The notes under the pieces were generated by a model. The model was not told the origin of the DNA, searched no databases, and saw only the letters and a list, made by a program, of their open reading frames with translations. From NCBI GenBank assembly GCA_002686955.1, contig NYZA01000043.1, positions 1 to 13,895 of the forward strand: DNA of 13,895 nucleotides, given 5' to 3'. Source of the DNA: Gemmatimonadota bacterium (GTDB lineage: Bacteria; GCA-2686955). Below are positions 1 to 8,003 of this stretch, piece by piece (position 1 is the first letter of the stretch; the number at the start of each line of letters is the position of its first letter). A program made the position numbers and the translations under genes.

Positions 1-95
1 GGGGGATCGGTGGGCGGCAGAGGGTTGGGCACGAAGGCCGCCACCTCTTCTCCGCCGGCTGTGGTGCGCTCGTAGGTTCCTGTTTGGCGCGGCAT
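1..95 (-). CDS. Fic family protein, N-terminal fragment (runs off window start)
   Basis: The reading frame opens with ATG at 93-95 on the minus strand and stays open to the window edge (31 full codons). The peptide begins MPRQTGTYERTTAGGEEVAA and continues FVPNPLPPTDPP. A GTYE..T..GE.V.AFVP.PLPP stretch is characteristic of the Fic_N type of Fic/Doc proteins, which are usually about 370 residues and use a later HPFxDGNGR motif to AMPylate targets. A GGGAAG sequence about 6 nt upstream of the ATG could serve as ribosome binding site. Only the extreme N-terminus is visible, so catalytic competence cannot be judged. The family call rests on the short N-terminal signature and is moderately sure. 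The same Fic subtype seems to be represented by the C-terminal remnant at 7600-7845, and in both places the 155-bp repeat lies on the upstream side of the minus-strand Fic sequence. Confidence 0.65.
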   Translation of the reverse strand, partial: MPRQTGTYERTTAGGEEVAAFVPNPLPPTDP

Positions 96-116
96 TGGGT
101 TCTTCCCGGGGAAGGC

Positions 117-255
117 GTTCTTTCTTCTCTCGGGGCCAAAAGAAAGGAATCTTTCTTTTCTCGGGCTCGAAAGAAAGAAATCTTTCTTTTGGCCTTTCTA
201 TCGCCTTCGAGTTCAAAAAGAAAGAAATCTTTCTTTTCTCGAGCTCAAAAGAAAG
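117..255. repeat. Tandem A/T-rich palindromes (AAAGAAAG/CTTTCTTT units)
   Basis: This A/T- and purine/pyrimidine-skewed block stands out from the high-GC surroundings. Three short palindromes recur: AAAAGAAAG at 138-146 with CTTTCTTTT at 151-159, AAAGAAAG at 170-177 with CTTTCTTT at 182-189, and AAAAGAAAG at 216-224 with CTTTCTTTT at 229-237. Loops are 4 nt. A fourth left arm lies at 247-255. The first two are nested in a longer perfect inverted repeat: GGCCAAAAGAAAG at 134-146 pairs with CTTTCTTTTGGCC at 182-194. The arms are joined by TCTCGGGCTC-like spacers that also repeat. The block can form several alternative hairpins or one cruciform-like structure. It lies just upstream of the minus-strand Fic start and runs into repeat copy A. 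Its function is unknown. Confidence 0.85.
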
Positions 256-405
256 AAAACCTACTTTTGCCCCTTTTCGTCTCCGCGCACGCGTTCAAAA
301 GCTCTCGCGATCGAGCCCCTATTGCACGCGCGGCCGCCGTGCCGGCGTGGCTTCCGCGATCGACGGTCGGAGGTCTCTGTCGCCCTCCCCTATCCCCTTC
401 TCCCT
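245..405 (+). repeat. Dispersed ~155-bp repeat, copy A
   Basis: This segment is repeated in the same orientation at 7847-8003 with roughly 85% identity by eye. The strongest shared blocks are CTACTTTTGCCCCTTTT, GCGTTCAAAAGCTC, CGCGATCGAGCCCCTATTGC followed by ACGCGC, GCCGGCGTGGCTTCCGCG and CTCTGTCGCCCTCCCC. All reading frames are similar between copies, with differences scattered irrespective of codon position. This fits a non-coding repeat better than a conserved protein. No terminal inverted repeats or target duplication are evident. Both copies adjoin Fic gene debris. Confidence 0.85.
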
Positions 406-480
406 CTAGGAGCCTGTGGGACATGATGCTGGTGGCGGCACGGGGGACGGAGGCTTCGCGCGAGCCGGAACCGGCCGCCG

Positions 481-959
481 GTGTCGAGCTACTCTCTGGG
501 TCCCCCCACTGTGGCCAAGGTGCCGGTGAGCTACCAACCTCCCTACGCAATCACGCCTGAGATTCTCGCGCTCGTGGAGCGGATCGGCGAGGCGCTCGGG
601 CGGCTGTCCGCGCTGTCTGGAACGGCCTCTCTCGCACCGCGGAGGGCGAATCGGATCCGCGCTTTGCGGGGTTCACTGGCCATCGAAGGGAACACGCTGA
701 CCGAGGGGGAGATCAGCACGATCCTCGACACAATCACACAGAGCGACCAAGTGAGCGACCAAGTAGCCAGGCTTCTGGAGTGCCTGCGCGATGGGCCGAA
801 GAACGCGAATGATTGCTGGCCGCACTCGGTCTCTCGCATCGCGCCGGCTTCCGGCGGCGCTATCTCAGGCCGGCGATGGAGGCGGGGCTGGTGGAGATGA
901 CCAACCCGCGTTCGCTGCGGGCGAAGAACCAGCGGTATCGCTTGCTGCTCCGGCCATAG
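481..959 (+). pseudogene. Fic family protein pseudogene: catalytic core deleted and frameshifted
   Basis: The first segment (GTG at 481 to 813) encodes a Fic N-terminal region: ITPEILALVERIGEALGRLS, then RANRIRALRGSLAIEGNTLT and GEISTILD. In intact relatives the latter leads into the Fic domain. Here ILD is joined directly to TITQSDQVSDQVARLLECLR, which is the linker before the C-terminal winged-helix. The roughly 180-200 residues that normally lie between them, including the HPFxDGNGR active site, are absent. One base is also missing after codon GAT at 811-813. Reading from 816 restores LLAALGLSHRAGF, then RRRYLRPAMEAGL, VEMTNP and QRYRLLLRP, ending at TAG 957-959, a typical Fic C-terminus. 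The gene is therefore doubly broken. The original start is uncertain. It belongs to a different Fic subtype from the one at 1-95. Confidence 0.85.
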
Positions 960-7599: not shown

Positions 7600-7845
7600 C
7601 TACAACTCCGTCCCCACGCGCAAGAGATCGAGGTAGGCGGCGCAGCTGAGGCGTTGGTCCCGTTTGCGGCCGGTGGTTTCCACGAGCACCTCGGCGTCGA
7701 CCAGCGCCTTCACGGCCATCGTCGCGGTCGGCCTTGTGGTTTCGAGCAGCCGCATGGCGGAAGGGATGGAGAGCACCGGGTTCTTGGGCAGAGCCTCGAA
7801 GAGCCGGGCTGCCATGAGCGTGCTCGTCTTGGCGTTCAGCACCTG
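7600..7845 (-). pseudogene. Fic family C-terminal remnant
   Basis: This short frame encodes VLNAKTSTLMAARLFEALPK, then NPVLSIPSAMRLLETTRPTA, then KALVDAEVLVETTGRKRDQR and YLDLLRVGTEL, ending at a stop at 7600-7602. The pattern is the C-terminal winged helix of Fic_N-type Fic proteins: RLFEALP.NPVL...A..LL.TT.PTA..A...LV..GVLVETTGRKRDR...Y..YL..LR.GTEL. No Fic domain precedes it. Upstream the frame reaches TAG within a few codons and the sequence becomes the dispersed repeat (copy B) at 7847. The GTG at 7840-7842 could act as a start, but a free-standing product would be an 80-residue HTH fragment. It is most likely the 3' end of a truncated gene of the same subtype as the one beginning at 95. 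Confidence 0.8.
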
Positions 7846-7846
7846 T

Positions 7847-8003
7847 TCAAAAGGAAAGAAACCCTACTTTTGCCCCTTTTTCGCGCCCGCACACGCGTTC
7901 AAAAGCTCCCGCGATCGAGCCCCTATTGCACGCGCAGCCACCGCGCCGGCGTGGCTTCCGCGGTCGACGATCGGCGAGCTCTGTCGCCCTCCCCGATCCT
8001 CTT
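7847..8003 (+). repeat. Dispersed ~155-bp repeat, copy B
   Basis: This is the second copy of the segment at 245-405 and runs in the same direction. It starts TCAAAAGGAAAGAAACCCTA and contains GCGTTCAAAAGCTCCCGCGA, GCCCCTATTGCACGCGC and GCCGGCGTGGCTTCCGCG. It ends next to CTCTGTCGCCCTCCCCGATC. It lacks the palindrome array present beside copy A and retains only one AAAAGGAAAG-like arm. One end touches the truncated Fic remnant. The other touches the stop codon of the GNAT gene at 8004-8006. Confidence 0.85.

Follow-up and report, generated by a model that had tools for sequence, protein, structure and literature searches.

The A/T-rich array of palindromes that lies just upstream of a Fic-family gene in this Gemmatimonadota genome is probably a locally amplified, slippage-prone minisatellite carried on a duplicated repeat–array–Fic segment, the second copy of which (copy B) would have lost most of the units as well as the 5′ three quarters of its Fic gene. 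The array has a tandem period of 31 bp, its unit is unique in the assembly save for one diverged unit at copy B, and it adjoins a dispersed element with sharp ends (copy A). The window analysed here is the entire contig C43 (13,895 bp), and genome searches covered the 4.28-Mb assembly to which it belongs (270 contigs). Because the completeness of this assembly is estimated at 84.5%, 'unique' here means unique in the assembled part of the genome. Feature coordinates are collected in Table 1.

Table 1 Features of the array, the neighbouring dispersed element and the Fic-type genes in the window
Feature	Position	Strand	Basis
Fic family gene, N terminus, running off the contig end	1–95	−	ATG at 95–93, translation; Fic_N on C166; homologue match
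31-bp tandem array (minisatellite), A/T palindromic units	107–277	.	Sequence check, TRF
Array parts	107–137 (degenerate); 138–168; 169–199; 200–215 (16-nt insert); 216–246; 247–277 (diverged)		
Imperfect palindrome, 61 bp, outer 13 bp perfect (134–146/182–194)	134–194	.	Sequence check
Dispersed element, copy A	281–399	+	Motif and model searches
Fic-type remnant, central Fic domain missing	481–958	+	N-terminal part by homology; frames by translation
Fic C-terminal fragment, subfamily as beside A, directly adjoining the one unit of copy B	7603–7846	−	Homology
Single remaining array unit, diverged, at copy B	7847–7880	+	Sequence comparison
Dispersed element, copy B	7886–8003	+	Model search, A/B alignment

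The array consists of about five head-to-tail 31-bp units that start at positions 107, 138, 169, 216 and 247. Successive starts are separated by 31, 31, 47 and 31 bp, the 47-bp step representing one unit plus the 16-nt insert. TRF returned the same period of 31 (87% matches over 119–190 and 83% over 207–268), which falls within the range of minisatellites, whose tandem units measure roughly 10–100 bp. Three of the units contain AAAGAAAG-NAAT-CTTTCTTT, and AAAGAAAGNAATCTTTCTTT occurs exactly in three, at 139, 170 and 217, in agreement with the three or more near-identical hairpins described in the initial annotation. The 13-bp inverted repeat that it reported was likewise perfect on sequence check, GGCCAAAAGAAAG at the left being the reverse complement of CTTTCTTTTGGCC at the right. 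The spacer TCTCGGGCTC at 159–168 recurs as TCTCGAGCTC at 237–246 and in a degenerate version at 128–137. A composition unlike that of the neighbourhood, also remarked on earlier, was borne out by a GC content of 0.41 over the 171 bp from position 107, compared with a window mean of 0.64 (s.d. 0.04); the lowest-GC stretch of 171 bp in the rest of the window had a value of 0.53.

Nested inverted repeats arise in the array because the unit is itself (nearly) palindromic and is repeated in tandem. The nested palindrome array first delimited at 117–255 is therefore real, although it extends over about 107–277 and its nesting is largely an arithmetic consequence of a tandem palindromic unit. Compared with dinucleotide shuffles, the folding energy of the array gave z values of −4.1 (RNA, plus strand), −3.3 (RNA, minus strand) and −4.8 (DNA, plus strand). 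Hairpins with perfect 9-bp arms number two in the array region, whereas shuffles average 0.14; as single shuffles contain up to four such hairpins (500 shuffles), the 31-bp period is stronger evidence than the hairpin count.

We then considered where else the unit occurs. The 20-bp palindrome pattern had three exact forward matches genome-wide, all within the array (C43:139–236), compared with none for the reversed-pattern control, and the spacer-side motif was also confined to the array site. Apart from the one diverged unit at copy B, no array unit was found elsewhere in the 4.28-Mb assembly; such uniqueness is one half of what the initial annotation said would refute its reading, the other half being invariance among strains. 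An exact pattern search of IMG/VR did not return the unit, and window positions 100–420 had no match in plasmid and phage collections. A plasmid, phage or viral origin of the array or of the dispersed element was accordingly rejected.

These results bear directly on the suggestion that the array is of REP/BIME type and mobilized by a REP-associated tyrosine transposase (RAYT). REPs are palindromes with a GTAG or CGTC head and are G+C-rich in RAYT-linked cases (PMC3733652, PMC2817692). The array resembles such sequences in that small palindromic units lie in an intergenic spacer (PMC2817692, PMC3733652). REP/BIME families, however, comprise many dispersed palindromes with such a head and have copies flanking a RAYT gene, whereas the array occupies a single site, its arms are A/T-rich and its units have neither GTAG nor CGTC head. 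The genome does encode one Y1_Tnp protein of IS200/RAYT type, the only such gene found (C59:8842–9117, locus L137; a 167-aa open frame), but no array units, dispersed element or clear inverted repeats were detected in its surroundings. Since the unit is absent elsewhere save for the diverged one at copy B, the array does not constitute a REP/BIME family, and we regard this origin as highly improbable.

The genome-wide dispersed family is instead the G+C-rich block of approximately 115 bp beside the array, not the hairpins. This element is present in about 50 copies across the genome: its 17-nt left-end motif has 43 genome matches at up to two mismatches, and a model search yielded 55 matches, 48 of them full length or nearly so. 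Conservation extends only from CCCCSGCGCACGCGTTCAAAAGC to CGCGTATCGCCTCCC, outside of which information drops to background, giving the element sharp ends. A codon-usage model places almost every copy between genes, in many cases shortly after a gene's stop codon. The right end frequently lies less than about 50 bp from the stop codon of an opposite-strand gene, which may point to an orientation bias. Short, non-coding, multi-copy, mostly intergenic and sharply bounded, the element resembles a MITE in these respects. Its termini may form imperfect inverted repeats of about 10 bp, GGCG-CACGCGTTC and GGCGATACGCGATC (GGCG-C/AT-ACGCG; shuffle P about 0.02). A scan for target site duplications gave a best z of 3.3 among 1,248 overlapping offset/length tests, which is not convincing. 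A conserved RNA structure was rejected, as none of six predicted pairs in the element showed the two-sided changes of a covarying fold.

The element was not found in the family relative G001, the one other genome of the phylum that was searched, nor in 58 further genomes. An exact pattern search of GTDB contigs and IMG/VR returned one match only, the GTDB contig L044, where it is a chance occurrence inside a MiaB-like gene, and the idea that the element has reached genomes other than this one was rejected. The genome also harbours a second dispersed family of approximately 180 bp with the long terminal inverted repeats GGGTCCGCGCAAGAAT...ATTCTTGCGCGGACCC, a classic MITE architecture. At least 40 copies are present, at C251:9297–9476, C88:3575–3754 and at least 38 other places; the family was seen in the flanks of L113 and L019, and in one case about 50 bp separate it from the 115-bp element. 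In addition, a MITE-like sequence of about 185 bp, the ends of which (ATTTCTCACCAACTTTCGTCGCGAGGCGGCGCA) are inverted over about 34 bp, occurs near copies of the 115-bp element at L115 (C228).

A MITE with its own minisatellite has been described in Porphyromonas gingivalis, where BrickBuilt contains a 23-nt tandem unit and occurs 19 times (PMC4596501). Our case is similar in that a short tandem unit, of 31 nt, is associated with a MITE-like element that is dispersed between genes and has small, possibly inverted, terminal repeats. In BrickBuilt, however, the units are inside the element, whereas here they adjoin one or two of about 50 copies and lie outside the conserved element edge. A BrickBuilt-like arrangement, with the array built into one end of a longer and less common form of the 115-bp element and moving along with it, would account for the presence of at least one unit at both A and B, at the same distance from the left end of the element. 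We nevertheless consider it improbable, given that the other 42 examined copies carry no unit, that conservation ends at the element edge and that A and B also share a Fic neighbour. Only copy A, among 44 examined copies, is flanked by tandem repeats with a period of at least 15. Ordinary bacterial minisatellites (VNTR loci) likewise have head-to-tail units, here of about 31 bp, that vary in divergence and lie outside genes; the palindromic nature of the unit sets the array apart from them. Because tandem units tied to MITE-like elements are known and the array lacks the hallmarks of REP/BIME sequences, we classify it as a minisatellite beside a MITE-like repeat.

Fic-type sequence adjoins both copy A and copy B. 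The N-terminal 116 residues of the gene beside A, read on the overlapping contig C166, match Fic_N (E = 3 × 10−21), and the fragment at B comprises 82 residues of a Fic C terminus. Both pieces align with one 383-aa Citrobacter Fic protein, at residues 3–115 and 305–381, respectively, and this homology places them in one subfamily. At B, Fic homology gives way to repeat homology at about 7846/7847. A and B are approximately 89% identical across about 157 bp that include the element-proximal array unit; other aligned element copies are 72–79% identical to A and carry no array unit. As the Fic neighbour is also common to A and B, duplication explains their common unit without transposition. To the right of A, positions 481–958 represent a Fic-type pseudogene, in which the N-terminal part and a winged-helix-like C-terminal part, the latter assigned by eye, are in different frames.

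At the left, window positions 1–91 are identical to C166:260–350 (91 bp), after which the contigs diverge, at the Fic start. This fork could be an assembly fork or mis-join, a strain variant or a rearrangement. The array begins about 15 bp past it, so the left junction of the array may be a strain variant or a mis-join.

We favour local amplification as the origin of the array. Slippage during replication, or else unequal exchange, would have multiplied a 31-bp A/T-rich palindromic unit to about five head-to-tail copies in the spacer that separates the Fic gene from a copy of the MITE-like element. Replication slippage is a general expectation for tandem repeats whose units form hairpins. Such units would ease slippage and automatically give nested inverted repeats, and the array would gain or lose units in this way. 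In this single genome, A and B appear to descend from one duplicated segment comprising the dispersed element, the array and the Fic gene. The simplest account of B is then a single deletion with one end within the array and the other near Fic codon 304; it would have taken out the distal units and the first three quarters of the Fic gene, so that the one unit left is joined directly to the Fic C terminus. The difference in unit number could mean that A has gained units or that B has lost them. As first noted, the array is reduced at copy B, where one unit remains. The accompanying proposal of an array able to expand and contract is consistent with the 31-bp tandem structure and with the unit counts in this single genome, five at A as against one at B.

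Some 12 bp separate the array from the ATG of the Fic gene upstream of which it lies, a position that would also suit a regulatory role. The palindromic units could form an operator or 5′-UTR array bound by a dimeric DNA-binding protein that controls Fic: they have dyad symmetry, those at 138, 169 and 216 are nearly identical, they lie 12–185 bp upstream of the ATG and repeat at about three helical turns (31 bp), and their fold is more stable than shuffles. The 47-bp step, however, breaks the helical phase, and the two units at the ends of the array are degenerate. Moreover, the genome has no related array elsewhere, and no sigma-70-like promoter was detected at the array. An operator is thus unlikely in our assessment, and it is more doubtful still that the units form a multi-site operator whose unit number tunes expression of a Fic-family gene in this uncultivated lineage.

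Other functional signals were sparse. The codon model placed no gene across the array, and an Rfam search of the window had no match to a known RNA family. Two terminator-like sites near 101–192 are about what shuffles give (expectation 1.2), and a terminator function was discarded. The initial annotation had also raised a replication or recombination site or a nuclease substrate; nothing was found in favour of these, and the window encodes no Rep, integrase or transposase genes. No finding points to an active role of the array, and as a minisatellite it would be selectively neutral.

The array itself is mostly ordinary, a feature of a known kind, and illustrates that a striking cluster of palindromes can result when a palindromic unit is simply repeated in tandem. 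Beyond the array, this analysis documents a lineage-specific MITE-like family of about 50 copies and a second of at least 40 in a poorly sampled bacterial lineage, in which a probable duplication and deletion can be traced at a Fic gene.
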